Shown here: one piece after another, positions 626 to 44,797 of the stretch
How positions within the stretch are numbered: the stretch's first letter is position 1
How the letters are laid out: the number at the start of each line of letters is the position of its first letter
Source: Caprimulgus europaeus
Lineage: Eukaryota; Chordata; Aves; Caprimulgiformes; Caprimulgidae
Length of the DNA: 64,000 bases
Reading direction: 5' to 3'
Assembly: GCA_907165065.1 (NCBI GenBank)
Contig: OU015543.1
Coordinates: 13,271,638-13,335,637, forward strand
The notes under the pieces: model-generated
Databases searched by the model: none
Told to the model about the DNA's origin: nothing
Seen by the model: only the letters and a program-made list of their open reading frames with translations
Position numbers and translations under genes: made by a program

Positions 626-3600
626 CGCCTGAAAGATGAGATAGCAGAAGTGACGAATGAGATTGAGAACCTGGGGTCCACGGAGGAGAGGTGAGTCCTC
701 TGCTGTCACAGGGTGCCTGGGGTCTCTGCTGAGCCCCCTCCCCTGCGGTGATGCTGACCCAGACGCTGGCTCACTCTCACAGTGTGGGAGCTGTGGGTGG
801 CTGAGCGGTGCAGCCCCATCCCGTGGGTGCTGGTGTGGGTGGCTGAGCGGTGCAGCCCCATCCCGTGGGTGCTGGTGTGGGTGGCTGAGCGGTGCAGCCC
901 CATCCCGTGGGTGCTGGTGTGGGTGGCTGAGCGGTGCAGCCCCATCCCGTGGGTGCTGGTGTGGGTGGCTGAGCGGTGCAGCCCCATCCCGTGGGTGCTG
1001 GTGTGGGTGGCTGAGCGGTGCAGCCCCATCCCGTGGGTGCTGGTGTGGGTGGCTGAGCGGTGCAGCCCCATCCCGTGGGTGCTGGTGTGGGCGGCTTTCC
1101 CAGGCGCTCTGAATTCCTTGGAGCGGTAGCGGGACCCCAGTCTGAACTGCTGCTCCCAGGGTCTGTTTTTCCAAGCCTCAGCCCCTGTCTGGCCACAGCG
1201 GCTGTCGGGCTTTGTTATTCTGAGCTGGCGCAGGCAGTGCCAGCCTGGGATTAGGGGGTACCAGCAGCCGTCGGGAGCTGACTCCCGGCGTCGTTTCCAA
1301 TCACCCAGTGGGGCATGAAGGCTGTCACCCCCACGCCGGCCCCGCTGCTCTCCCAGAGCCCCACCGCACCCAGCTTGCCCTCTCCCCACCCATGCAGAGG
1401 TGACCTGCCAGGATGCTGTGCCCAGCACCCCATCTGCCCGGCGTGACCCCGTGGCCGGGGCATGGCAGCTCCTCTCTGCTCTGGGCCCTGGCAGGCTGAG
1501 AGCAGCCCCGTGCCGCTGTGCCGCGGAGCGGAGCGCAGACACGGAGCAGTGTGCGGGCTTCACCCCGCGCAGGTTTGACACGGGGCCTGGCCTGGCCCGA
1601 GTTGCTCGGCTCCTGTGAAGTCCAGACTGAGCCTTCCCCGTGGTGCTCTGCTCGAGGGGCTGGGCAGGAGGAAGCCGGGTCCCTCCTCGGTGCTCAGAGC
1701 CGCTTTGTGTCTTGCAGGAAAAACATGCAGAGGAACAAGCAGGTGGCGATGGGCAGGAAGAAGTTCAACATGGATCCCAAGAAGGTACTGTGGGGTGGGC
1801 TGGATGGGGACCGGGGCAGCAGGCTCCTGGGGGGGTCTGTGTGGAGGGGACGTTCGCCAGCCCATCTAGGGCCGTGCTGGGCTCTGCCACCTCACAGCCA
1901 GGGTGTCTGGCTGTCTGCCCGGCCGGGGCAGAGCCAGCACCATGGGCAGGGGCTGGGGAGGCAGCGGGTGGACTGGTGGGGTCAGCAGCAAGGCCCAAAG
2001 CAGCACCTCTTGCACCGCTCCAGGGCATCCAGTTCCTGATCGAAAATGACCTGCTGAAGAACACGTGTGAGGATATCGCTCAGTTCCTGTACAAGGGAGA
2101 GGGCCTCAACAAGACGGCCATCGGTGACTACCTGGGCGAGAGGTATGCTGGCCAGGGGTGGCTCCTGAGGGTGCCCTGGGCTCTCACTGCCTGAGAGACG
2201 GGCTGCTGCAGATCTTTGAGCTTCCAGGGCAGCTGAGCAGGGGTACACGGGGGGCTGGGCACCCCGAGTGCCAGGGCTGGCTGGTGGCTGTCCGATCCGT
2301 GGGTGACACTTGCCGGTGTGTGCAGAGCCACCCAGGACTCCAGCCGAGGGGTAGCTGCAGGTTCCCCCCAGAAATGAGCAGAGTCTGGAGCTGGGCAGGA
2401 GGACGTGGGGCCGCTCGGGAGTCACAGGACTTGCTGATCACGCATCCCTCGTGCTCTGGCCTTGTTCCCGCAGGGATGAGTTCAACATCCAAGTCCTGCA
2501 CGCCTTCGTGGAGCTGCACGAGTTCACTGACCTCAACCTCGTGCAGGCGCTGCGGTGAGCCGGGGGGCTGGGGCTGAGCCGTGTCCCGCGGGGGGGTGGG
2601 CGGCCGGCCGGCGGGGGGCCGTAGCGGCGCGTGGAGCCCCCAAAGCAGCGCCACACCTCGCTCCTCGCAGGCAGTTCCTGTGGAGCTTCCGGCTGCCCGG
2701 GGAGGCGCAGAAGATCGACCGGATGATGGAGGCCTTTGCCCAGCGGTACTGCCAGTGCAACCCCGGCGTCTTCCAGTCCACAGGTGAGCACCTGCCCCGG
2801 CCCCGTGCCCCGGCCCCGCTCCCCAGCCCTCCTGCCTCGCAGCTGACTTTCCTCTCTGCCCCTGTAGACACCTGCTACGTGCTCTCCTTCGCCATCATCA
2901 TGCTGAACACCAGCCTGCACAACCCCAACGTCAAGGACAAACCCACAGCAGAGCGCTTCATCGCCATGAACCGTGGCATCAACGATGGAGGGGACCTGCC
3001 TGAGGAGCTGCTCCGGGTGAGGGTGGGGACGCGGAGGGGCCGGGGCCGGGCTGCAGAGCTGGCCCATCGCGTGGCTCCCGAGCAGAGCAGAGCTGACACT
3101 GTGTACTGTCGTACCAGAATCTCTATGAGAGCATCAAGAATGAACCCTTCAAAATCCCCGAGGACGACGGCAATGACCTCACCCACACGTTCTTCAACCC
3201 TGACCGGGAGGGCTGGCTCCTGAAGCTCGGTGAGTGCTGGCAGCCAGGCAGGAGCTGGGCTGTGGGTGTGATGCCCTGGGCTGTGTGCACCTCACATGCT
3301 GGCCTGGGTCCTCCAAGCATGGCCCTGCAGAGGGGCAAGAGGCTGTGGATGGGGACACAGCCCCCATGGGGAAGACGTCCATACATCCAGCAGCCCTCCA
3401 TCTTCTGACGAGGCTCTGCGGTGCTGCTGGGTGGGTATCCTGGGGGGTTCTGCCTCTAGGCTGGGCGAGCCCCAGGGTGCAGAGCTGGTACTGGGGTCTG
3501 GTGACGGAGCACGGAGACCACAAGGCCCTTCTCATCACCGAGTCACAGCAGGGTCCTGTCAGAGCAGGTCCCCAGGAGCGAGCGGCGAGCTGCCCCAGGC

Positions 3601-6600
3601 TGCGTGCGTCCCCCCCTCCATGCCACAGACCAGTCCCTGCCTCACCTCCCCACGGCATTATCACCTCCGCATCCCGGCTCCACGTGCAGGCAGCGTGCAT
3701 GGCATCCCCGCTGCACAGCCCGGCTCTGGCGCCCGCCGAGCCCGCCCCTCGCCCTGGCTCCTGTGGCTTCTCCTCTCGGCGGCTCTGGGGAATCCTCTGC
3801 CCGGGTTAAAAGGACGATGGGGTGCTGGCAGGAGCGGGGGCTGGTGGGGGCCTTTCCCGGGGCTCTGGCTGGGGTTGGGACTCTGTCCTCCCACAGTGGG
3901 GTGGTTTCTGCCGTATTTCCACCCCCTTGAGATGGGAGAGGGACCTTGTCCCCCTCCCCATGCCCTGACCTGGGCTGAGCAAGAGCTCGCGTGGGGGGAC
4001 ATGGGGGAGAGCCCAGCCCTGTCCCTCCTGTCCTCGAGCGAGCCCAGTGCTGTGCTGGCAGAAGGGTCCCATGCACGGCGGGTTGGCACCCGGGGCCATC
4101 AGGACATTGGTGGCTGGGGGGTTGGAGAGGTGGTAGAGCAGCTGTGGGCCCCAGCCTGGCTGCCACGGCTCAGCCCACTGGTGTGGCAGAGAGGGACCCC
4201 ACAGGGAGGCCATGGGGCGGGGTTGAGCCAGGCCCTGTGTCCCCCCAGCCGAGGAGATCGGTCCCACAGAGCCACAGCGAGCCAGGGCAGGGTGGCCCCC
4301 GCGGCGGTGCTGCCGGCCCAGCCCCTCACGGCTTCCCTGCTGCAGCCCTGCCCCACTGACCCGCGGGGCAAGGGGGGTTCTTTGGGGTTTCCTCTTTTTA
4401 TTTTTATTTTTTTTCCTTTTTTTTAATTTTCTTTTCTCCCTCATTTGTATGTTTCCATGATTTTGGCTCTTCCTTTCCTTGCCCCCAACTCCAGGAGGTA
4501 CGTACCCCTCTCCCTGCTCTGCTCACGCTGCTGGGGCTTCGTTTCCTTTTTGTTTTTAATTGCTGGTGATGAGTCTCATTGCTGCTGCTGCTAACCACCC
4601 GCACCGCCCGGGGACCTCGCCTGCCGAGGGGACAGCCCCGCTCCCGACACCGCCGGGGCAGGGCTGTGGGGTACCGGCCCCGCCGATGCCGAATGCTCCT
4701 CGAGGTCTGCCGGCCCCCTCTGCTGCCCCAGCGCCCCCCGTGGCGTGGGGACAGACAGGGCCACAGCCACCCCTTGCCCAGCCGCTGACCGGAGCCACCC
4801 GCCGGTCCGTGCTTCGCCGTGTTCGCAGGCAGCTCGGCCCCGGCGGGTCTTTGCCTCCGGTGCCGTGAGGGATGGGGACAGGTTTGGGGTGCCCTCAGGA
4901 AGGGCCCCAGCCGTGTGCAGGGGGTTGGGGGTTCCGAGTGCCTGGAGCTGGATGGGAGCAGGCAGGAGCCGTCTGCGCGGTGCCCTGTGCCACGCCGGGG
5001 GCTCGCGGCAGTCCCCGTGCTGGGTGCTGGTGCTGCCCTGTCTCCATCACCTGCAGCCTTGGGGTGCCAGGCAATGTGGGTGCTCCTCCTGGGACTGCGC
5101 TGGCCCTTGGTCCCGTACGGCCCTGCAGACCCCAGCCCCTGCAGACCCCAACCCCCAGGCTCCTGCCCTCCTGTGCCATAGGACCCTGCCCTGGCACATG
5201 GCTGCTTCCTGCCCGCAGCCCCAGGAGAGGAGGTGGCCATGGGGAAGGGCCAGGGGCTGGAGCGGATCAGACCCCAGGTTTTGGGGGGGGGTGTTGGCTG
5301 GAGGGAGGCAGAGGGGCTTTGGCTGGGAAGTGCTGTTCTGCAGCTGGCTTTGGGGCAGGGACTGGGGTGGGCTGGGGGAGATGAGCACGGCCCCACACAC
5401 GGTGTCTCCTCACATCCACGCCAGCCCGGGCAGCACCCCCTGGGTGCTCGTCCCACCACGGCCACACATCTGGCACCGCTGCAATGGCCAGAGCATGCTG
5501 GCACGGTGGAGGGGCAGCCAGGCCCAGGGGTGAGCGGTCCCTGAGCCCACGGAGTGGCTTCTCCCTCTGTGGTGGCAGTTGTGACACTTCCTCCCACCAA
5601 AACTCCCCATGCTGTGGCCCTGGCCTCGTGCTTTACCCCAGCACTGAGCTGCACTGGCCAGGACACAGTGACTGTGGTCAGTGTGAACAGGGTCCCCGTG
5701 TCCCCCGAGAGCTGCCTGGCTGCGGCGTCCTCTGGCCACGCTCCATCAGTGTTTGGGTGGGAACGGGCGCAGTGCTCCTGGCCCGGCCACCCTCCACCTC
5801 CATCCTCATCCGTCTGCTTTCCGCTCCTGCTCGTGCCGTGCCCGGCGTGGCGTGTGCTGCTGCCGCTGCCCGCCGGGCTGCCTGGCTCTGCTTGCGCCCC
5901 GGCGCCCGGTGCTTGGCTGTGTGTGTCCGCATGGGCTCCAGCTCTGCCGTAGCCTCCGTGTGCCGTGAGCTCCGGGCGCGTGTCCTGGCCGCACCGTGCC
6001 GCGGCGGCGCCCAACCTGCCCCTCTCTGCTCCCAGGAGGCCGCGTGAAGACGTGGAAGCGGCGCTGGTTCATCCTGACTGACAACTGCCTTTACTACTTC
6101 GAGTACACGACGGTCAGTGACTGCGGGGGGTGGTGAGCCGGGGGGCAGGGACGGGCACCGGATCCGGCCCGGCCGTCACCTGCCCGGGTGGGGCCGCCTG
6201 CCTCCTGCCGTGCTGGGGTGCTGGTGACTGTAGGGGTGCAGGATGCGGCCCTCGGGTGCAGGGGGATGTTGGGGAGGGGGTTTTGCAGTGTCCAGCCCTG
6301 CCGGGGCATGCGGGTGGGTTTGGAGGTGTCCAGCCTGCAGCTAAAGCTTCTGCTTGGCCCCACCAGGATAAAGAGCCCCGTGGCATCATCCCCCTGGAGA
6401 ACCTGAGCATCCGCGAGGTGGAGGACTCCAAGAAGCCCGTGAGTGCTGTGGAGGGTCCCCCGGGCTGGAGGGGCAGCGCTGGTGCTTTGGTTGGGGCAGG
6501 GGAAGCCGGGAGGTGCCCCTGAGAGAGCCAGGAGGGCCCTGCAGCCATCACTGGGTGCAGACCCCGGGCTGGTCACTGCGTGTCCAGGGCTGGTGGCAGG

Positions 6601-7175
6601 GCACGCCTGGGGACATGGGGTGGTGGTCACCGTGTGTCCATCCCTCTCTGCTGTGTCGGGGTGGCTGTGCCAGGAGAGCACCCGCAGCCTCAGTGCTCTG
6701 CCTCGTCCCTCCCAGCCCGGGGTCCCCTTTGGAAGTGGGGGCTGCTTCTGAACAGTCTCCTCCCTCCCAGAACTGCTTTGAGCTCTACATCCCCGACAAC
6801 AAGGACCAGGTGATCAAGGCCTGCAAGACAGAGGCGGATGGGCGAGTGGTGGAGGGGAACCACACCGTGTACCGCATCTCTGCCCCCACGCCCGAGGAGA
6901 AGGAGGAGTGGATCAAGTGCATCAAGTGAGTGCTGGGCGCAGCGGGCGCCGGGAGGCTGGGGCACCCTGCGAGGATGGGCGGGGAACGGGCTTTCCCAGG
7001 GGCACAACGGGACCAGCCCCAGGCCCTGCCAGGCAGGACAGACCCAGCCCTGTGCCTGGCTGCACAGCTAACCCGAGCCCCCGTTCCCCCTGCCAGGGCA
7101 GCGATCAGCCGGGACCCTTTCTACGAGATGCTGGCTGCCAGGAAGAAGAAGGTCTCCTCCACCAAGAGACATTAG
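626..7175 (+). CDS. CYTH1: Cytohesin-1, Arf guanine-nucleotide exchange factor (5'-partial)
   Basis: Exons seen: 626-690, 1718-1784, 2024-2142, 2474-2554, 2671-2783, 2868-3016, 3118-3229, optional 4495-4497, 6036-6112, 6367-6438, 6771-6925, 7097-7175 (TAG). Phases agree throughout, giving 362 residues (363 with the microexon). The family is about 397-398, so about 35 N-terminal residues lie upstream of the window. Order: end of the coiled coil, Sec7 domain with the [12 protein letters not shown] motif (catalytic glutamate, about residue 157 of the full protein) and the motif around [11 protein letters not shown], then a PH domain and a basic tail ending [10 protein letters not shown], which identifies CYTH1 rather than CYTH2/3. 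The protein catalyses GDP/GTP exchange on Arf GTPases at phosphoinositide-rich membranes; the PH domain recruits it and the basic tail assists. The gene lies just upstream of DNAH17 on the same strand. Confidence 0.96.
786..1089. repeat. 42-bp minisatellite, about 7 near-identical copies, in a CYTH1 intron
   Basis: A 42-base unit beginning TGTGGGTGGCTGAGCGG recurs seven times with essentially no divergence. The unit length is a multiple of three and contains no stop in several frames, so long spurious open frames appear on both strands here. It sits between CYTH1 exons at 690 and 1718. No function is evident; near-identity of copies suggests recent expansion or homogenisation. Confidence 0.95.
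4388..4494 (+). promoter_or_regulatory. Pyrimidine-rich intronic tract upstream of the CYTH1 microexon
   Basis: About 60 bases (roughly 4388-4450) are almost pure T/C with a few A, standing out in an otherwise GC-rich intron. A second T/C-rich stretch (4461-4492) runs up to the CCAG acceptor. Neuronal-type microexons typically depend on long upstream polypyrimidine tracts bound by PTB, SRRM4 or RBFOX-class factors, so a splicing-control role is likely. The binding factor is not determined. Confidence 0.45.
4495..4497 (+). CDS. CYTH1: 3-nt alternative microexon (GAG) of CYTH1 adding one glycine to the PH domain
   Basis: In the 2.8-kb intron between 3229 and 6036, the bases GAG are flanked by CCAG upstream and GTACGT downstream, that is, a complete acceptor and donor around three nucleotides. 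The upstream exon ends in phase 1 (g) and the downstream exon starts GAGGC. Skipping gives K-L-G-G-R; inclusion gives K-L-G-G-G-R. Cytohesin genes are known to have exactly this diglycine/triglycine alternative splice, which changes PH-domain selectivity (the 2G form prefers PI(3,4,5)P3, the 3G form binds PI(4,5)P2 comparably). Use of the microexon is inferred; it is invisible to ORF-based annotation. Confidence 0.8.
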
Positions 7176-15600: not shown

Positions 15601-17759
15601 GTGGGGTCTTGGCTGCAGGTTCTGGTGCCGTACAGCTGGGAGAAGGGAAGGATGCGGGATCCATGTGACAGCCAGGCAGGACAAACCCGCAGGGACCGTG
15701 AGCGGGGACTGACCCGCGGTGCCAGGAGCTGCTACGTTCGCTGAGTGTCTCCTGGCACACACAAGTTGGGTGTTTCTGCTGGCAGGAGAACGCGGCTCTG
15801 TTGAAGGCTGATAAGTCGTCGCAGCTGTGGCTGGATTATGTGGGACACATAGATGGCATCGTGCTGGACGGACTCTTCACACTTGTCCACAAATCTCTGC
15901 AGTTCCTGCTCACCAACATGTCCCCTGAGGTAGGTCCTGGTTTCCCCCACGGTGCAGTGTCCCTGCTTTGTCCGAGCTTGGGACGTGCCACCACTCGCTG
16001 TTTGGTGGCCCAACGTGCCCATCCCAGTGCACCCAGGCAGCGAGTGCCAGAGGTGCTGGTGTCCCCCCTCGCCCCCATGGCCGGGGGACCACAGGGCTGG
16101 GGGTGCTGCAGGACACGAAGCACCACAGCGGGCACTGGCCTGTTTCAGGGCAAGGCGGCCCCGTTGTTCAAGGTGCGCATGGAGCTGTCCGACGGCAGAG
16201 TGCGGTACCATCCCTCGCTGGAGACAGGAGACGAGAACAGCTTCATGGAGCTGGTGGAGAACCTGCTCAGCGATACCTACGTGGCCACGGCCTGCGTGCC
16301 TCGGCTGCTGGAGGGGAAGCTGAGCTACAGGGTCAGTCCATGGCCGGTGGCACCTCGAGGCTCAGCCAGAGGTGGGTGAGGATGCCTGGTCCCCTAGAGC
16401 TCTGCCTGTCCCTTCAGACCACCCTGGAGGAGGAGCCGGACCTCATCAGCATGCGGGAGGAGGTGGTGTCGCTGGTGGTCAACGCCATGACAGAAGGCGA
16501 GGAGTACAGCGCCAGCTTTGAGGAGCAATCCCACCTGTGGCTGGAGGACCCCAAGGAGTTCCTGCAGCGCTTCCTCACCTTGGGCAGTGCCCTCAGTGAC
16601 GAGGAGCTGGAGCTACAGCCAGAGGAACCCCGGGTTCAAGGGATCCCACCCCTCCAGCTCTTTCAGCAGGAGGTAAGGGGCGAGTGCCTGGGATGCACCG
16701 GCTCCCCAGGAGGACACTGGGTGCCTGGTGAGGTGCTGGGGGCCCGGGGAGGTGCCAGTCACAGTCTGTGACCAGCTCTTGTCCCCAGATCGATGAGTCC
16801 CAGGCGCTGTGTGAGGAGGTGTCGGGGTTTGCAGACACCGAGGTGTTTGGGGGGTGGCTGCAGAGCGACTGCCGCCCCTTCAAGCAGGCACTGCTGGCTG
16901 CCGTCAGGGGCCGGGGGCTGGTGCTCCGGCAGCACCTTGCCACACACGTCACCACCAGGTAGGAGCCTGGCTGGGATGCAACGATGGCACGGCTGCGTGC
17001 CATGTGCCTGGGCAGGGCTGACCCGAGGGACTGAGCTGTCTCTCGGGGTGCAGATGTGCAGCGTGGGGGTGGGGTGAGGCTGCGGGGCACCCCCCATCAG
17101 GGACACCCAGTGAGTGCCACCATCTTCCACCCAGCCTCCAGGAGCTGGAGGATTTCATCAAAGAGGTGAACGCTGGCTTGAGCAAACCTCTGGAGGAGGG
17201 AGACTATGACGGGCTGGTGGAGGTGATGAAGCACCTGATGAGGGTCAAGGAGAGGCAGGCGGTGACTGACAGCATGTTTGAGCCCCTGAAGGAGACAGTT
17301 GCCCTGCTCAGCACTTATGGAGAGGAGATGCCGGAGGAGATCCACCTGCAGCTCCAGGTGAGCTGCTTGGGGTGCAGGGGGCTGGGCACGGGCTCCCTGG
17401 GGCCAGGCTGCCAACACCACACGGTCCTCACTGCAGGAGCTCCCCGAGCGCTGGGACAGCACCAAGAAGCTCTCCCTGCGCGTCAAGCAGAGCGCAGCAC
17501 CCCTGCAAACCAACGAGGTCAACGGCATCCGCAGGAAGTGCCAGCAGTTCGAGGTACCTGCGCTGGGGCCTGGGGACGGGGTGGGGGCCAGTGAGCAGCT
17601 TTGGGAGGACCCCGCTGCTCTCCCTGGCTGCCACCTCCCGGCCACCCCCTGAGCCCCGTCCTCCCCGCGCAGGTCCGGCAGCACGTCTTCCGGGAGAGGT
17701 TCCGGGAAAAAGCCCCTTTTTCCTACACTGACCCCCACCCCTACAAGTCCTTGAACAAG
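9640..17759 (+). other. DNAH17: DNAH17 exons 1-23: N-terminal tail (residues 1-1238)
   Basis: Exons: 9640-9984, 10583-10776, 11034-11226, 11324-11423, 11513-11598, 11750-11875, 12154-12309, 12390-12473, 12784-12951, 13179-13295, 13493-13761, 13877-14072, 14200-14346, 14743-14851, 15042-15145, 15246-15386, 15786-15929, 16149-16331, 16418-16672, 16789-16958, 17135-17357, 17437-17553, 17673-17759. This part dimerises with partner heavy chains and binds intermediate chains at the A-tubule docking site. Recognisable tail phrases include [16 protein letters not shown] and PLFERKDNK. Exon 13 ends at a GC donor. The N-terminus is the least conserved part; a second in-frame Met is residue 8. Confidence 0.93.
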
Positions 17760-20700: not shown

Positions 20701-23700
20701 GGTGAGAATCACAGAATGGTGGGGTTGGAAGGGACCTCAGGAGATCATCCAGTCCAACCCCCTGCCAAAGCAGGTTCCCTACACCAGGTTGCACAGGAAA
20801 GTGTCCAGGTGGGTTTGAACATCTCCAGAGATGGAGACTCCACACCCTCTCTGGGCAGCCTGGCCCAGGGCTCCGGCACCCTCACAGGAAAGAAGTTTTT
20901 CCTCATGTTTCAGTGGAACCTCCTGTGCTCCAGCTTGTGCCCGTTGTCCCTTGTCCTATTACTGGCCACCACTGAACAGAGTCTGGCCCCATCCCCTTGA
21001 CACCCACCCTTTAGATAGTGATAAACACTTATAAGGTCCCGTTAGCTATTGATTAACATTGATAAGGTCTCTTTAGATATTAACATTGATCAGCTCCCCT
21101 CTCAGCCTGCCCTTCTCCAGGCTGAACAGCCCCAGCTCTCTCAGTCTTTCCTCATGAGATGCTCCAGCCCCTTCATCATCTTTGTAGCCCTCTCTGTCCA
21201 CCTCAGCCCTGGGCTGTGCGGGGTGAGCCCTGCAGCTTGTTAGGAGGCGCAGGGAGCCGCTTGCACGTGGCCACGGGGTCACACAGCCAGACCAGACACG
21301 GGCTGGGAACCGCTCGCTCAGGGTGTGCTGGATGTGACCCTCCAGGTGGAGGTTTGGCTGAACCGCGTGCTGGCCAGCATGCGCTCCACCCTGCGGCACC
21401 TGATCCCCGAGGCCGTGGTCACCTACGAGGAGAAGCCGCGGGAGCAGTGGGTGTTCGACTACCCGGCACAGGTGGGAGCTGCCGCCCGGGGCTGGGCTGG
21501 CCGGCGGCACGGGGAGCTGGAGGAGCGAGCAGAGAGCCCGGGGAGCTTTTTTCCCTTCATGGCCGTGTTTTCTCCCCATGGCTTTGCTGCAGGTTGCTCT
21601 GACGTGCACCCAGATCTGGTGGACCACAGAAGTCGGCATTGCCTTCTCACGGCTGGAGGAAGGCTACGAGAACGCCATGAGGGATTACAACAAAAAGCAG
21701 GTTGGCACCCCATGACCCGCAGCCCCTCTGCTCCGGAGAGGCGAGGTCTGGTCCGGAGGGGTCACAGGGAGACGGGCAAAGTGCCGTGGCGTTTTTCTGT
21801 TCATCTTTTCTTTCCTGCCTCAGATTACTCAGCTAAATGCGCTGATTTCACTACTGATTGGAAACCTGACCCCCGGGGACAGGATGAAGATCATGACAAT
21901 CTGCACCATTGACGTCCACGCCAGGGACGTCGTGGCCAAAATGATCCTTTCAAAGGTATTTGTGACAAGAGGAGATTTTTACTGCTCTGCTCCTGGGCAC
22001 TTCTGAGCAAAGTTTTTCCTGTTATTTTATTAGTTTCCAATATTTTCAAAGTATCCCAACTGCGTGAGGAAACCACAGGCGGGGTGTTCAGGGTGCAGGG
22101 GAGGTGACAGCACGGCCAGGGTCAGATGAGACCAGGCTGGGTCTTGTGCAAATCCAGATCGAGGAGCAATTGCCGGTTCCTGCCGCGCATGGGGGGAGCC
22201 GGCAGCCGTGGCACCGGGCTGTGCCCTGTGGCTGGCAGGCACGGGGCAGGCTGGGTCCTCACCCACCCCAGCATTGCACTGGGACCTCTTTGCACGCTCT
22301 CCTCGTGTATGGAGGTGACAAAGCATCCCGGCGTGTGCGCGGGAGCTCTCGGTGCCGGCGGGTCGAGGCGGGCAGCGCCGGTCCCTGCCCGTCCTCTGCA
22401 GCCGGCTGCTCCGCAGGTGGAGAGTGCCCAGGAGTTCGCCTGGCAGTCGCAGCTGCGGCACCGCTGGGACGAGGGCAAGAGGCACTGCTACGCCAACATC
22501 TGCGACGCTCAGCTCCAGTACTCGTACGAGTACCTGGGGAACACCCCCCGGCTGGTCATCACCCCCCTGACGGATCGGTAGGGACTCGGCTCCCCGCCCC
22601 TCCGCTGCCCACGCCGACGAGGTCAGCGCGGTGGCCGTGCCGCTGGCACCGCTCAGCCCTGCCCGTCCCCCCCCTGCAGGTGCTACATCACCCTGACACA
22701 GTCCCTCCACCTCTACATGGGGGGGGCCCCCGCCGGTCCCGCGGGCACCGGGAAGACAGAGACCACCAAGGACCTGGGCCGGGCGGTGGGCATGATGGTC
22801 TATGTCTTCAACTGCTCCGAGCAGATGGACTACAAGGTAGGGTGTGGGTCAGCGGGATGGTGGCACCAAGGCGAGAGCTCTGGGGTGTCCGATGAGACAA
22901 GAGGGGACCCAGCATGCCCCCATCCTGTTTGGCTGCAGTGTCCATCACTGGGGCTCTGAAGCTGCTCTCCTCTCCCCCGGCTCGACAGCCATCGGGAAAA
23001 TTGTGGGTCCATCCCCTGGTGCCATCCCACACCGCTCACCCCCACCACGGCTCCAGCCGCTCGTGTCCCGGGGAGCCCAGGGGGCTGGAACCTGCAGGGC
23101 ATTTCCCTAAGGAACAGCACAATCCACCAAAGCACGAGCAGATCCCAGCACTTGAGCTCTCTTAACGGATCCCACGTCGCAGCCTTGGAGTCTGAAGCCC
23201 ATCTCTGGTGCTTTCTCCCCAGTCCTGCGGCAACATCTACAAGGGGCTGGCTCAGACCGGCGCCTGGGGCTGCTTCGACGAATTCAACCGCATTGCAGTG
23301 GAGGTTTTGTCGGTGATTGCTGTGCAGGTGAGCGCCAGTCCAGGGCAGTGTGACTGGATGGGCCTCGGCAGTTCCAGCTCACGTTGCCTCGGTTAAACCC
23401 GACTTTCAAGGGGACCAGTTGCTGGTTTTATTTCCACTGTCTCATGTCAGGGAGCAAACAGAGGGGAAGTGCAGTGCAGAGGCTTTGGGCCCAGCTGTGT
23501 CCCATCCCGTCCCCCGCTCTGGCTCTGCCATCGCCCCGTGACAGGGCGTCCCGGTGCCGGGGAAGGAGCTGTTTCACGGGCAGCTCTCCTGAGCCCGGGG
23601 ATCACTGCTCTGCCGTGGCTGCAGCAAGCTGCAGCGTTGCTGATGGCGCAGCCAAACCTCCAGGCTCGCTTTCCGTGGTCGGTGAGGGTGAGCCGGGGCC

Positions 23701-32700: not shown

Positions 32701-35700
32701 AGACGCGTCCCTGCAGGGTGGTCATGGTGGCCATGCGGTCCCCGAGCTGTACCGAGCCACCGCTGCGCGGCTGGGCAGGGCTTGACAGGACCAGCCCCCT
32801 GATCCTCTCCGTTGCCCCCCCTGCCAAGGTGGATGACCTGAAAGCCAAGCTGGCGGTGCAGGAGGTAGAGCTGAAGCAGAAGAATGAAGATGCAGATAAA
32901 CTGATCCACGTAGTGGGCATCGAGACGGAGAAGGTCAGCAAGGAGAAAGCCATCGCTGATGGGGAGGAGCTGAAGGTCCAGGCCATCAACACGGTGCGTT
33001 GCACTGAGCCGGTGCCCACCACACCGGGGTCCAGCACGGGATGGGGCAGCACGAGCTCTGTTGGCTCCAGCTGCTCACCCCACCCCATCCCATCCCATCC
33101 CACCCCTTTGCCTCCCCAGAACGTGGCCGAGAAGCAGCGAGCTTGCGAGACTGACCTGGCGAAAGCAGAGCCAGCGCTCGTGGCTGCCCAGGAGGCCCTC
33201 GACACGCTCAACAAGGTGGGTGGCCCCTCGGTGGGAAGCGGGTCCCTGGCTGGTGCCAGTGTCCCCATGCCAGGGCGATGCTCAGCGGCCCCACGGTCCC
33301 TTCCCAGAACAACCTGACGGAGCTGAAGTCCTTTGGGACCCCGCCACAAGCCGTGGTGAACGTGACAGCGGCTGTGATGATCCTGACGGCTCCCAGGGGC
33401 GTCATACCCAAGGACAAGAGCTGGAAGGCAGCAAAAGTGATGATGGGAAAAGTAGACACTTTCCTTGACTCCCTGAAGAAGTTTGACAAGGAGCACATCC
33501 CCGAGGCCTGCCTCAAGGCGTTTCAGTGAGTCCAGGGCTGGTTCCTGTCCCCGGCCCCGTGCCACCGGGCTGCCCTGGGCAGGGCATCCAGGAGAGACCC
33601 TCACCCAGTGAGCGCCGCGGGGTTCAAGGGGCCACTGTGGGATCCAGGGGTGTGCTCAGCTCTCCCACCCTGCACCCCTTGGCACCCTGAGCCCCGGGAC
33701 GAGCGGGACGGGGCTGCCGGCAGCCACAGCACGGTGCCACAGCCCAGCACGGTGCCACAGCCCGGCACGGTGCCACAGCGCGGTGCCACAGCCCGGCATG
33801 GTGTCACAGCGCGGCACGGTGTCACAGCCCGGCACGGTGCCACAGCGCGGTGCCACAGCCCGGCATGGTGCCACAGCCCAGCACGGTGCCACAGCGCGGC
33901 ACGGTGTCACAGCGCGGTGCCACAGCCCAGCACGGTGCCACAGCCCGGCACGGTGTCACAGCCCGGCACGGTGTCACAGCGCGGTGCCACAGCCCGGCAC
34001 GGTGTCACAGCCCGGCACGGTGTCACAGCGCGGTGCCACAGCCTGGCACGGTGTCACAGCGCAGCACGGTGTCACAGCCCGGCACGGTGCCACAGCGCAG
34101 CACGGTGTCACAGCGCGGTGCCACAGCCCGGCACGGTGTCACAGCCCGGCACGGTGTCACAGCGCAGCACGGTGTCACAGCCCGGCACGGTGTCACAGCC
34201 CAGCACGGTGTCACAGCCCAGCACGTTCTCCTGTTCCAGGCCCTACCGGACGGACCCCAGTTTTGATCCAGAGTTCATCAAGTCGAAGTCAACAGCAGCC
34301 GCGGGGCTGTGCTCCTGGTGCCTGAACATCGTTCGCTTCTACGAGGTGTTCTGCGAGGTGGAGCCCAAGCGACAGGCGCTGGCGGAGGCCAACGCGGAGC
34401 TGGAGGAGGCACAAGAAAAACTGAGTCGCATTAAGAACAAGATTGCGGTAAGTGCGTGAGCCCGGGCTGGCACCTGCCACGACCCCACCAGCCACCAGCA
34501 GCGCGGCCACGGGTCACGGCCAGCAGCCAAAAATGAGCGAGAGAGATTCTTGTGATGGAGACAACCTGGATCCCAGTGCGAGGGGCGGCTGCAGGGCTCC
34601 CTTGGGGCTGCAGAGCTCCCTCCTGGCCTGGCAGCTCCCTGCAGCCACGCCGGGTGCCGGAGGTGACTGGAGGTGTTGTCCTTTGAAGGACCTGAACACC
34701 AACCTGGCAGCTCTCACTGCGGAATTTGAGAAAGCTACAGCTGAGAAAATCAAATGTCAGCAGGAGGCCGATGCAACCAACAGAGTCATCACGCTGGCAA
34801 ACAGGTACCGTGCGAACGCTGGCTCCGGCATGCTGGGACTGTCTGCTGCTCCCCACCACTGCCTGGTGACAATGACACAGGGGTCGTGGAAGCATCAGAG
34901 CCCCCCCATCCCCTCCCCGAATTAAAAAGTCCCAAGTACGAATGGGGACAGACGTTTTGGGGGGCATGCAGCGGCGGAGCCGTGCGCCCCAGGTGAGGGG
35001 AGCCCATTGCCCGAGCAGAGGTGGGTTAATCCCCAGGGCGTTTGGTGACACCGCTCTGAGACATCATGGCTGAGTCCCCCCACCCCGCAGCCACCATCTC
35101 CTCTGACCCCCCCAGGCTCATTGGGGGCCTGGCATCCGAAAACGTGCGCTGGGCTGAGTCGGTGGAGATGCTCAGAGAGCAGGAGAAGACGCTGTGCGGA
35201 GACGTCCTGCTGATCTCCGCCTTCGTGTCCTACGTCGGCTACTTCACCAAGAAGTACCGGGCCGAGCTGCTGGAGAAGCACTGGATCCCCTTCCTCAGCG
35301 AGCTGGCGGTGAGTGGCCGTGGGTCCACCCCAGGTGCTGGGGGCTCCTTCCCCCCACACCCGCCAGCACCGAGGGGCTCCCGCCCTTCCGCAGCCAGGTG
35401 ACCAACAGCCCCTCCCCGGCAGGTGCCCATCCCCATCACCCCCGGGCTGGACCCCCTCAGCCTCCTCACTGATGCTGCCGACGTGGCTGCCTGGAGCAAC
35501 CAGGGGCTGCCCAGCGACCGCATGTCCACCGAGAACGCCACCATCCTCTGCAACACCCAGCGCTGGCCCCTGGTCGTGGACGCCCAGCTCCAGGGCATCA
35601 AGTGGATCAAGAACAAATACGGGGAGGAGCTGCAGACCATCCGCCTGGGCCAGAGGAGGTGGGGCTGCTGCGGGGCGGCCGCAGGCTGGGGCTGGACTGA

Positions 35701-41700: not shown

Positions 41701-44700
41701 GGGCCCACACACAATGGGCAGAACAGGATCTGTGGCAATAACTGATTTCTTATTAGTGCAAGGAAGCAGAGACACGGTTCTAGCCCCGTGCCACAGGCTG
41801 CCAGGCTGGGGAAGGGGGAGCTGCTGGCACAGAGCTCAGCAGGAACACTGGACACCCCTGACAAGTTTTTATTTGCATACTATTGCACTTGGTTTCTCTG
41901 TGGCCAGGGTCTCCTTTGCATTTCCTTTGCCAGTCTCTGGCGTTGGCAATGTCACCAAACACCAACAAACCCTCCACCGCGCTACAGCGGCCGAGACAGC
42001 AGCACCGACACCGCCCAGGGCGGGCCAGGGACTGGCCGTGGCTGCCGGTGTCTCCCTGTCCCATCTCTCTCCCCGCTTCTCTGCTCTTGCATCAACCCAG
42101 GCAGGACCCAGGTCACAAGACTGGCAGCTGCTCCAGCATCTCCGAGACACGTGGTGCAGCTACAAAAGTCAGCAGTGTTCAGGGAGGTTACACTGGCTAG
42201 AGATGTGCCAGTGGCAAAATGTGGCTCACATGCTGCGCCCTCAGCAGATGGAGCAGGCTAAGGAATTTCTGGTCATGATGGCAACTACTAAAAATACAGA
42301 TCTAAAAAAAGAAAAGAAGTCTTCCTCCTGCCTCCTTGGATTTTACGCTTGAATTTCAGTCTCTGTGCCTGCAGTTCTTACTTCCTTGGCTATCAGAAAA
42401 AGAGCTGCAGCTTCTTAAGATCCAAGAGTAGTTAATAAAAGAATAGAGAAAACACAAAGGCAGAAAACGTTACTAAGTGAACTGCTGACTCGCAGCCTTT
42501 CTCCGAGGCAGCAGCAGTGCTATGGCCTGTTCCCTCCAGGTGAAGTCCGTCCTGGACGAGATCGTGGAGAAGCTGCCGGAGCCCTTCAACATGGCAGAGA
42601 TGGTGGCGAAAGGGGTGGAGAAGACCCCGTACGTTGTGGTTGCCTTCCAGGAATGTGAAAGGATGAACATCTTGACCCAGGAAATGAGACGCTCTTTGAA
42701 GGAGCTCGACCTGGGGCTAAAGGTAGGCGCCGGCCCCGGCAGCGCCCTTCCCTGCCCGGCAGCTCCCCGGGCGCTGTAAGCGCCCGCTGCTCATCTCCAG
42801 CCTCGTTTGAACGAAGCGCTGGGCTGGCCCCGCTCTCAGCCTCACCCCCCCCGCGCCGGGCACGGCCAGGCCGTCCCCACCTCCTGCTCTGTGCCCAGTG
42901 TGACACCAAACACCCCACCAGTCTTGCTTCCCTCAGACCAAACTGCCCGACTTGTCTCTTTTTCCAGGGAGAGCTCACGATTACGTCGGATATGGAAGAG
43001 CTGGCCAACTCTCTCTTCTACGACAGCGTTCCCCAGTCCTGGACCCGCTACGCCTACCCCTCGCTGCTTGCTTTGGGAGCCTGGTACGCAGACCTGCTCC
43101 TGCGCATCAGGGTGAGTAGAGTTACTGTGAAAGGTAAAGCTCAGGGAGCAAGCGGATCCCACAGACCAGGAATCACCTCCACCCCTGTACAGTGGTTAAC
43201 CAGTTTATTTTCAATATTCATGTGAGCAGTCTGAAGCTCCTGGAGTGGCTGGTTACCCCCAGAACGAGAGCAGTGTGGAAAGGGTTCCCCACCAGAGTGT
43301 ATCACTGTTTCAGAGGAACATTAGCTAACCCCTCGCAACTTTACACGTCCCCGAAGAAAAAGATATTTAATAAAACCTTCTAAAGTGTGGCTTTGTTAAA
43401 AAAATAATAGCTGTATTTACTGCAATCCAAGTTAATGGTTTAAGTGTCAATGCTGCAGTGGAATCTGCCATTTATCCATCACTGACCACCTCCATCCCAG
43501 TCCCCCCCTCTGGAAGGTCACCTGAAGCTGGCGTTGGGCAGTGTCAGTCACATCTCAAAGTGCCCCAAGGCCGTGCTTTGCTCTCAAGTCCTTTGCTGTT
43601 TTTCCTTTCCAGGAACTGGAAGTCTGGTCAACAGACTTTGTGCTGCCTGCAACAGTGTGGCTGGCAGGATTCTTCAACCCCCAGTCCTTCCTCACTGCCA
43701 TCATGCAGTCCATGGCCAGAAAAAACGAATGGCCACTGGACAAGATGTGTCTTTCAGTGGAAGTGACCAAGAAAAACCGCGAGGAGGTAACAGCTCCACC
43801 CAGAGAAGGCTCCTACGTGCACGGATTATTCATGGAAGGTAAAAGGCTGCACCTTTTCTGAGGTGTTTCAGATACAGGGAAAGCCTCGTTCAGCCTTAAA
43901 AGTCCTTGCACCCAGGGCGGGTGTTGGCGCTCACTGGCTCCCCGCGGCGGAGCCTCACTCCACGCGCATGCGAGGGACGCGCCAGCTGAGGGCAGCACCC
44001 GCCCAGGGGACGAGCAGAGGGTGACAAAGAGAAGCTGGGTGTTGGAAGCTAAGACTGCGTGTCATGAACCTGAGGAGGGGGGTGTCTGAAGCCACGTGGT
44101 TCTAACGAATAAATAGATTACGCTTTTATTTGACGTGGGAGTAAGACAAATCAGGAAACTGAGAACATAAAGTAATTACTGGTACAGCGGGGGGACGAGA
44201 TGGCAATGGCAGCAGCACCCCTTAAACAAGAGCACAGACCACACAGGACAGCTCCTGTGGCTCCCACCACAGCCAGGTTCTACCTCCAGCTGTGCAAACC
44301 CGTGCTGAAGGGAGGAGTGGGGACAGAATTTATTTAGACACCCCACGCACAGTAAGGCAGAAACGCATTCACGAGTCACAGTGAGATGATAACGTTAGCC
44401 CTAAGCCACGCCTGCCCCGCCTTCCCCCTCCATCCCTCAACCGTGCTGCTAGAGCAGCTCCTTCCCCCTTTAGCAGGTATGAACACAGCCCCCTCCCAGT
44501 GAAAAAGCCAGCAGGTAACGGGTACCCCAACCACTTCACCCTGTTGCAGGCGCTCGCTGGGACATCCAGGCGGGTGTGATCACAGACGCGCGGCTGAAGG
44601 AGCTGACGCCCGTCATGCCGGTCATCTTCATCAGAGCCATCCCCGTGGACCGCATGGACACCAAGAACGTCTACGAGTGCCCTGTCTATAAGACACGGAT

Positions 44701-44797
44701 GCGGGGCCCCACCTACGTCTGGACCTTCAACCTGAAGACAAAAGAAAAGGCCGCGAAGTGGATCCTCGCCGCGGTCGCTCTGCTCTTACAGCCCTGA
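9640..44797 (+). CDS. DNAH17: Dynein axonemal heavy chain 17, complete, 80 coding exons
   Basis: Outer-dynein-arm heavy chain (beta type, best known from sperm flagella); its ATPase drives microtubule sliding. The hand-joined exons total 13,392 nt, 4,463 codons plus stop, against about 4,462 in human, with every junction in phase. Architecture: tail (1-1238), linker (1239-1775), AAA1 with P-loop GPAGTGKT (1848-1855) and Walker B CFDEFN, AAA2 P-loop GNAGCGKS (2129-2136), AAA3 GNAGTGKS (2456-2463), AAA4 GVGGSGKQ (2802-2809), stalk with microtubule-binding domain (about 2982-3326), AAA5/6 and the C-terminal domain. The start ATG has a strong context (A at -3, G at +4). All 79 introns are under 1 kb (about 78-914 bp). 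DNAH17 rather than DNAH9/11 is chosen from overall sequence and from its CYTH1 and PGS1 neighbours. Exon lists are in the block entries. Confidence 0.97.
14347..14742 (+). other. DNAH17: DNAH17 intron 13, predicted GC-AG intron
   Basis: The exon ends GTATAACGAG (…GWYNE) and the intron begins GCAGGT. The next exon starts at 14743 after CTCAG with GTGAAGCAGCAG (VKQQLLP). Phase 0 on both sides requires this junction; the nearby GT in GCAGGT would shift the frame. The remembered human protein has YNE directly followed by the homologous segment. Confidence 0.8.
17889..21955 (+). other. DNAH17: DNAH17 exons 24-33: linker region (residues 1239-1775)
   Basis: Exons: 17889-18041, 18521-18769, 18990-19112, 19341-19688, 19767-19858, 20033-20159, 20328-20480, 21346-21471, 21593-21700, 21824-21955. 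This is the mechanical lever arching over the AAA ring. Strongly conserved phrases include [50 protein letters not shown] and [10 protein letters not shown]-like [13 protein letters not shown]. Exon 27 (348 nt) is the longest exon of the gene. Intron 30 (20481-21345) carries the CR1 fragment. Confidence 0.95.
20706..21200 (-). mobile_element. CR1 LINE fragment (avian/reptilian), antisense in DNAH17 intron 30
   Basis: The block beginning AATCACAGAATGGT and TTGGAAGGGACCTC, then CATCCAGTCCAACCCCC, TCTGGGCAGCCTGG, TCCAGCTTGTGCCCGTTGTC and CAGGCTGAACAGCCCCAGC is the reverse complement of the familiar CR1 3' region. It is 5'-truncated, about 495 bp, with no ORF2 coding capacity visible. This is the clearest sign that the genome is avian (or at least sauropsid). 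The 3' end is at about 20706 and the 5' truncation near 21200; the latter is approximate. Confidence 0.9.
22417..25376 (+). other. DNAH17: DNAH17 exons 34-39: AAA1, main ATPase site (residues 1776-2091)
   Basis: Exons: 22417-22577, 22680-22836, 23223-23327, 23755-23912, 24548-24686, 25149-25376. Exon 35 encodes the P-loop [10 protein letters not shown] (lysine 1854); exon 36 encodes GCFDEFNR, with Walker B Asp/Glu about 1900-1901. [16 protein letters not shown] carries the sensor and arginine region. All residues expected for ATP hydrolysis are present, so the motor should be active. Confidence 0.96.
24182..24278. repeat. 23-bp minisatellite, 4.2 copies, DNAH17 intron 37
   Basis: The unit TGCTGGCAGGGGTGGCCCAG plus GGG repeats four times without a mismatch, then breaks off. 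It lies between exons 37 and 38. No function is suggested. Confidence 0.92.
25531..27292 (+). other. DNAH17: DNAH17 exons 40-45: AAA2 (residues 2092-2426)
   Basis: Exons: 25531-25668, 25797-25929, 26196-26323, 26441-26589, 26727-27009, 27119-27292. Exon 40 ends with the P-loop GNAGCGKSQ; exon 42 carries [17 protein letters not shown] with the Walker B-type aspartates, followed by LASNERIPL and TVSRAGILY. In axonemal dyneins AAA2 binds nucleotide structurally and completes the AAA1 pocket. Confidence 0.95.
26599..26680. repeat. GGGAT pentanucleotide repeat, DNAH17 intron 43
   Basis: Six perfect GATGG/GGGAT units, then decayed ones (GGGAC, GAGAT, GGCAC). G-runs of three every five bases could form a G-quadruplex on the plus (transcript) strand. 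The intron is only 137 bp, so the repeat fills most of it. Confidence 0.9.
28002..30554 (+). other. DNAH17: DNAH17 exons 46-52: AAA3 (residues 2427-2774)
   Basis: Exons: 28002-28209, 28304-28469, 28991-29093, 29360-29507, 29861-29952, 30136-30297, 30390-30554. Exon 46 has the P-loop [11 protein letters not shown]; exon 47 has the Walker B region [20 protein letters not shown]3 is the main regulatory nucleotide site. Residue 2467, four after the P-loop serine, is Trp where I recall Gly in relatives. Exon 51 is taken to end at 30297 (GGT|GTAAGT), which keeps phase; an overlapping GT two bases upstream would not. Confidence 0.95.
29105..29270. repeat. Degenerate GGGATGGAGT / GGGGTCAGAT repeat, DNAH17 intron 48
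   Basis: Decamer-like units GGGATGGAGT, GGGATGGGGT and CAGATGGAGT alternate for about 165 bases directly after the exon-48 donor. It is related in composition to the GGGAT repeat in intron 43 but with a higher-order 20-base period. Confidence 0.85.
30699..32184 (+). other. DNAH17: DNAH17 exons 53-55: AAA4 (residues 2775-2981)
   Basis: Exons: 30699-30890, 31287-31553, 32023-32184. Exon 53 has the P-loop GVGGSGKQS; exon 54 carries VFLMTDSQV at the Walker B position, without the usual acidic pair, as expected for AAA4, which binds but scarcely hydrolyses ATP. Exon 55 has the conserved [16 protein letters not shown]. Confidence 0.95.
32401..34804 (+). other. DNAH17: DNAH17 exons 56-61: end of AAA4, coiled-coil stalk and microtubule-binding domain
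   Basis: Exons: 32401-32634, 32829-32993, 33120-33215, 33308-33525, 34240-34447, 34689-34804 (residues 2982-3326). Outgoing coil: [17 protein letters not shown] and [16 protein letters not shown]. Microtubule-binding domain: exons 59-60 from about [10 protein letters not shown] to [12 protein letters not shown]. Returning coil: [19 protein letters not shown] and [15 protein letters not shown]. The intron that splits the microtubule-binding domain (33526-34239) is mostly minisatellite. Exons 57 and 61 have weak AAG acceptors. Confidence 0.94.
33725..34228. repeat. 18-bp minisatellite of about 500 bp filling DNAH17 intron 59
   Basis: Units of the form CACAGCCCGGCACGGTGT or -GC alternate with shortened 13-base units (CACAGCGCGGTGC). 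Roughly 28-30 units lie between the exon-59 donor (33526) and exon-60 acceptor (34239). Every unit contains both CACAG and GGTG, that is, acceptor-like and donor-like fragments. Several frames stay open through the array and mimic a 200-280-residue protein; this is not coding. Confidence 0.93.
35116..39144 (+). other. DNAH17: DNAH17 exons 62-70: AAA5 and the start of AAA6 (residues ~3327-3844)
   Basis: Exons: 35116-35308, 35423-35658, 35917-36039, 36754-36958, 37458-37622, 37770-37910, 38046-38216, 38405-38527, 38951-39144. Conserved phrases: [27 protein letters not shown]-like [61 protein letters not shown] and [17 protein letters not shown]5 and AAA6 lack nucleotide-site motifs, as in the family; AAA5 includes the buttress that senses the stalk. 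Exons 67 and 70 use AAG acceptors. Confidence 0.94.
39275..44797 (+). other. DNAH17: DNAH17 exons 71-80: AAA6 and C-terminal domain (residues ~3844-4463)
   Basis: Exons: 39275-39423, 39552-39679, 39877-40104, 40658-40849, 40975-41154, 41443-41625, 42540-42722, 42968-43111, 43613-43838, 44550-44797 (TGA). Diagnostic phrases: [115 protein letters not shown] and the terminal [14 protein letters not shown]. The dynein heavy chain C-terminal domain regulates ring motility. Exon 76 ends at a GC donor. Confidence 0.96.
41626..42539 (+). other. DNAH17: DNAH17 intron 76, predicted GC-AG intron (largest intron, 914 bp)
   Basis: The donor is AAG|GCAAGT, the textbook GC-donor consensus, after SREEK; the acceptor CTCCAG precedes GTGAAGTCC (VKSVLDEI). 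Both sides are phase 0. A GT donor four bases downstream breaks the frame. The intron has no other recognised feature. Confidence 0.85.

Follow-up and report, generated by a model that had tools for sequence, protein, structure and literature searches.

Does the 2.8-kb intron of a cytohesin gene in Caprimulgus europaeus hold an exon of only three bases, whose use would change the number of glycines in the PH domain by one? The DNA analysed is a single stretch of 64,000 nt, here called the window. An earlier note on it had pointed to CCAG|GAG|GTACGT in the middle of the intron, and both the coordinates and the letters of that claim were found to be exact: ccag occupies 4491-4494, GAG 4495-4497 and gtacgt 4498-4503 (4491-4503 as a whole), inside an intron running from 3230 to 6035. 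The features needed for the following argument are given below; the splice-site scores, here and throughout, are based on approximate vertebrate frequencies and not on a calibrated program.

626-690, 1718-1784, 2024-2142, 2474-2554, 2671-2783 and 2868-3016, + strand: predicted CYTH1 coding exons 1-6 of 11, part of a 362-aa open translation
3118-3229, 6036-6112, 6367-6438, 6771-6925 and 7097-7174, + strand: predicted CYTH1 coding exons 7-11 of 11, completing the same translation
3118-3229, + strand: exon 5' of the candidate microexon, ending ...LLKL plus G in phase 1; donor gtgagt, score 4.8; spliced translation in frame
3230-6035, + strand: host intron of 2,806 nt, which holds the GAG site
4373-4492, + strand: AG-free stretch (AG exclusion zone) of 120 nt, the second longest of 4,982 on this strand
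4388-4437, + strand: T-rich tract, roughly 58-107 nt 5' of the candidate microexon
4495-4497, + strand: candidate GAG microexon, 3 nt, scoring 6.3 at its acceptor and 4.2 at its donor; if included, the protein would gain one Gly (2G to 3G)
4498-4503, + strand: donor GTACGT of the candidate microexon, with the top score among 152 GT sites within the intron, the intron's own donor excluded
6036-6112, + strand: exon 3' of the candidate microexon, beginning GAGGCCGC; acceptor ctcccag

The 11 exons between 626 and 7174 share one frame, giving 362 residues that end in KKVSSTKRH followed by a TAG stop, while the gene's 5' end falls beyond the window. The translation carries the domain pair of cytohesins, with Pfam matches to Sec7 (265.5 bits) and PH (87.8 bits). 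In a structure search, two cytohesin-1 sequences scored 426.5 and 418.8 bits, compared to at most 392.2 bits for 11 cytohesin-2/-3 (ARNO) sequences, and the Sec7 domain differed from that of cytohesin-1 in chain 1bc9 at two of 190 aligned residues (188 identical), as counted from the printed alignment. A dynein heavy chain gene is found next to the cytohesin gene on the same strand, where the segments 22582-22956 and 16499-16672 both had DNAH17 as their best match; CYTH1 and DNAH17 are presumably adjacent in human as well. Based on its Sec7 and PH domains, the first rank of cytohesin-1 and DNAH17 as the neighbour, the host gene is identified by sequence similarity as CYTH1. A protein scan of the viral_contigs collection yielded no relative.

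The consequence of including GAG was read from the spliced translation. Skipping of GAG yields an intact protein with the segment LLKLGGRVKTW (2G), and its insertion yields LLKLGGGRVKTW, with the core LKLGGGRVK (3G). The junction is in phase 1, at which only 4 of the 64 possible trinucleotides (GAG, GCG, GGG and GTG) result in the gain of one Gly, and the claim that the flanking exon phases let GAG add exactly one Gly is borne out by the spliced translation. When the 3G translation was compared to solved structures, 10 sequences were matched; among the five alignments printed, the one to 1u2b (cytohesin 3) was gapless, and the other four, all to cytohesin-3/GRP1, had one Gly fewer at the LKLGG(G)RVK position. 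The insertion point is thus the 2G/3G position of solved 3G and 2G PH domains. The sequence itself shows the candidate splice sites, the reading phase and the predicted 2G or 3G protein.

Splice signals around the GAG

The strength of the two candidate splice sites was compared to sites within the same intron, the same gene and the whole window. The candidate acceptor ranks second of 165 AG sites in the intron, the first being the true acceptor at 6036, and scores above 8 of the 11 own acceptors of CYTH1, with the remaining 3 of 11 scoring at least equal. Scores equal to or higher than that of the candidate donor were obtained for 5 of the 10 own CYTH1 donors; the donor of the intron itself (3230, score 4.8) stands outside the count of 152 GT sites in which the candidate donor is best. 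Seven AG-N3-GT pairs were found in the intron, of which the candidate reached a summed score of +10.5 and the runner-up -5.4. Across both strands of the 64 kb, one of 477 such pairs scored above the candidate, at 16670, and because the frame through its CAG-GAG aligns with DNAH17, the most likely reading of this pair is the end of a coding exon of DNAH17, as opposed to an independent microexon. The summed score of the candidate was reached in one of 2,000 dinucleotide shuffles of the whole intron and in one of 5,000 of the local sequence; no shuffle reached it with GAG as the enclosed triplet, and none matched both scores. A search of the same intron for further microexons of 6-30 nt, restricted to multiples of 3, gave no close competitor; the best summed score was 0.9.

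The letters of the site are far less distinctive than their splice-site scores. A single match to CAGGAGGTACGT was found across the window with at most one mismatch allowed, and at least one such match occurred in 12 of 100 shuffles. The signal derives from splice-site strength, a pyrimidine-rich and AG-free context and the reading phase, not from the 12-mer.

The sequence upstream of the GAG is extreme in composition. On a 60-nt scale, the T-content maximum over both strands of the 64-kb window (44/60) falls here, in segments starting at 4378 and 4395, as does the pyrimidine maximum on a 100-nt scale (85/100, starting at 4387 and 4388). The pyrimidine tract claimed in the earlier note is therefore present, though it was placed 45-100 bases upstream and lies at about 4388-4437, roughly 58-107 nt from the exon. 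Four candidate branch-point-like adenines in a yTnAy context were found at 4400, 4406, 4426 and 4443, corresponding to 95, 89, 69 and 52 nt from the exon. The AG-free stretch by itself proves little, since the longest on the + strand, of 167 nt (5773-5939), is found elsewhere in this intron, about 100 nt 5' of the 6036 acceptor, and on the minus strand 5 of 4,626 such stretches are at least 120 nt long.

Pyrimidine-rich upstream motifs are reported for the alternative class of micro-exons in PMC4317164, and the CYTH1 site is alike in this respect. The same paper reports TGCATG (RBFOX) to be overrepresented downstream of alternative micro-exons, whereas this motif is absent from 4381-4620 at the CYTH1 site, a segment covering about 120 nt downstream. 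CTCTCT is likewise absent from 4381-4620. Of the SRRM4 layout as outlined in PMC12626420, one TGC (4480-4482) and a pyrimidine-rich flank are present, without CTCTCT, and the TGC is a weak hint of SRRM4 at most. With TGCATG missing and the SRRM4 layout incomplete, neural control is unsupported by the sequence.

Alternative readings of the site

A splice-like site could have arisen by chance or be in decay, never or hardly included, in which case the gene would yield only 2G in this species. The default translation is indeed an intact 2G protein, and the bare consensus YAGNNNGTRNGT by itself occurs at chance level, with 7 found compared to 6.18 expected. However, such an origin is at odds with the best intron-internal donor, a near-best acceptor and the extreme T-rich context, as well as with a trinucleotide and a protein position that are the same as those reported in PMC9104363, and we regard it as highly unlikely. 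Nor does variation at the downstream exon offer a source of the additional glycine. The 6036 acceptor is a CAGGAG (NAGNAG, 6033-6038), and a tandem acceptor CAG|GAG could in principle vary the Gly count with no microexon involved; however, splicing to the second AG would take one Gly away and leave 1G (LKLGRVK), never 3G. A NAGNAG origin of 3G is thus ruled out by the reading frame, and the probability left to a tandem acceptor as the cause of the Gly variation is practically negligible.

The juxtaposition of an acceptor and a donor midway through a 2.8-kb intron would also fit a recursive splice point, where the exon ending at 3229 is spliced to the site and the donor GTACGT, thus regenerated, excises the remainder of the intron, so that the mRNA keeps no trace of the site or keeps the GAG only sometimes. 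An intermediate of this kind arises for every 3-nt exon if the intron before it is the first to be excised. A true zero-length site, however, needs GAG as its acceptor, which scores -2.8 compared to +6.3 for CAG, and 2.8 kb is short for an intron spliced recursively in vertebrates. A zero-length recursive exon is rejected as the main reading by the poor score of the GAG acceptor, and recursive splicing in the general form is judged extremely unlikely. The two functions might also be combined, with the site doubling as microexon and recursive splice point, so that GAG once joined would be re-spliceable and the order of splicing, instead of plain skipping, would set the ratio of 2G to 3G; to this possibility we assign only a very slight probability.

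The mammalian cytohesin switch and a possible splicing route

The CYTH1 GAG switch is already known from mammals. As described in PMC9104363, cytohesins-1, -2 and -3 each occur in one form with two and one with three glycines in the beta1/beta2 loop, owing to a 3-bp GAG difference, where the 2G form is selective for PI(3,4,5)P3 and the 3G form binds PI(3,4,5)P3 and PI(4,5)P2 similarly. PMC10586773 refers to a "single Glycine microexon" and has 3G preferring PI(4,5)P2, and the two reviews thereby disagree on whether 3G binds the two lipids about equally (PMC9104363) or has a PI(4,5)P2 preference (PMC10586773). The latter source further states that ARF6-mediated migration of HeLa cells downstream of c-MET is promoted by CYTH1 2G but not by 3G. 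The two reviews agree with the earlier note that the 2G and 3G splice forms of mammalian cytohesins differ in phosphoinositide selectivity. No bird-specific work on the cytohesin microexon was found among open PMC papers.

The nightjar site resembles the mammalian cytohesin-1/-2/-3 microexon in its position in the PH-domain beta1/beta2 loop, its length of 3 nt, its letters GAG and its effect of one Gly, and no difference was found in these compared features (protein position, length, letters and effect). Other very short, conserved alternative micro-exons are known that likewise keep the frame and insert one or two residues, such as the 6-nt ones of APBB in mammals, chicken and fish and the 3-nt one of TLN1 in mammals, according to PMC4317164. 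The three-base exon is probably real, and since the GAG of the window matches the mammalian one in its host gene, position, length and letters, we consider 4495-4497 very likely to be orthologous, in CYTH1, to the mammalian 3-nt cassette microexon already known. The interpretation given in the earlier note is supported in its essentials. It had described the GAG as "controlling" the glycine switch, which is apt as regards which isoform is made and overstated for anything beyond that.

Taking the GAG as this cassette microexon, its skipping would join 3229 to 6036 and produce a beta1/beta2 loop with two glycines, expected to be PI(3,4,5)P3-selective, whereas its inclusion would give a three-glycine loop in which the selectivity for PI(3,4,5)P3 would be lost; membrane recruitment of the 3G form may therefore depend less on PI 3-kinase. 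Inclusion would probably proceed by two separate intron removals, one after another, as ordinary exon definition can hardly recognise 3 nt, and may be aided by the strong acceptor, by the extended T-rich sequence devoid of AG and by a branch point some 52-95 nt upstream. Pyrimidine-tract-binding proteins, PTBP1 as a guess, could act as repressors. PTBP1 represses other micro-exons, and those it represses have weaker splice sites, according to PMC4317164; the guess is weakened by the splice sites of the CYTH1 microexon, which are not weak. The one-residue switch in lipid selectivity known from mammals is thereby indicated to be encoded in this genome too. The CYTH1 GAG changes no concept, but makes a useful benchmark for annotation programs that might overlook exons of 3 nt.

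Neighbouring sequences

The axonemal dynein heavy chain gene adjoining CYTH1 probably extends over about 9600-44797 on the + strand, with DNAH17 the best match at the two places tested and the outer limits tentative; a coding-looking end of the form ...LLLQP-stop is found at 44795-44797. A PDB search with 43374-43763, apparently translated out of frame with respect to the last dynein exons, had no match. Searches across the window gave no Rfam family at gathering score and no tRNA (ARAGORN). One weak match to a CR1-like tail pattern, with 2 mismatches, was found, and 11 of 100 shuffles contain such a match as well. Two tandem repeats were observed: a GC-rich array of about 500 bp at 33721-34225 with periods of 18, 49 and 67, which from its inferred placement is probably within a DNAH17 intron, and a minisatellite at 792-1096 within a CYTH1 intron, in which a 42-bp unit is repeated 7.3 times with 99% matches.
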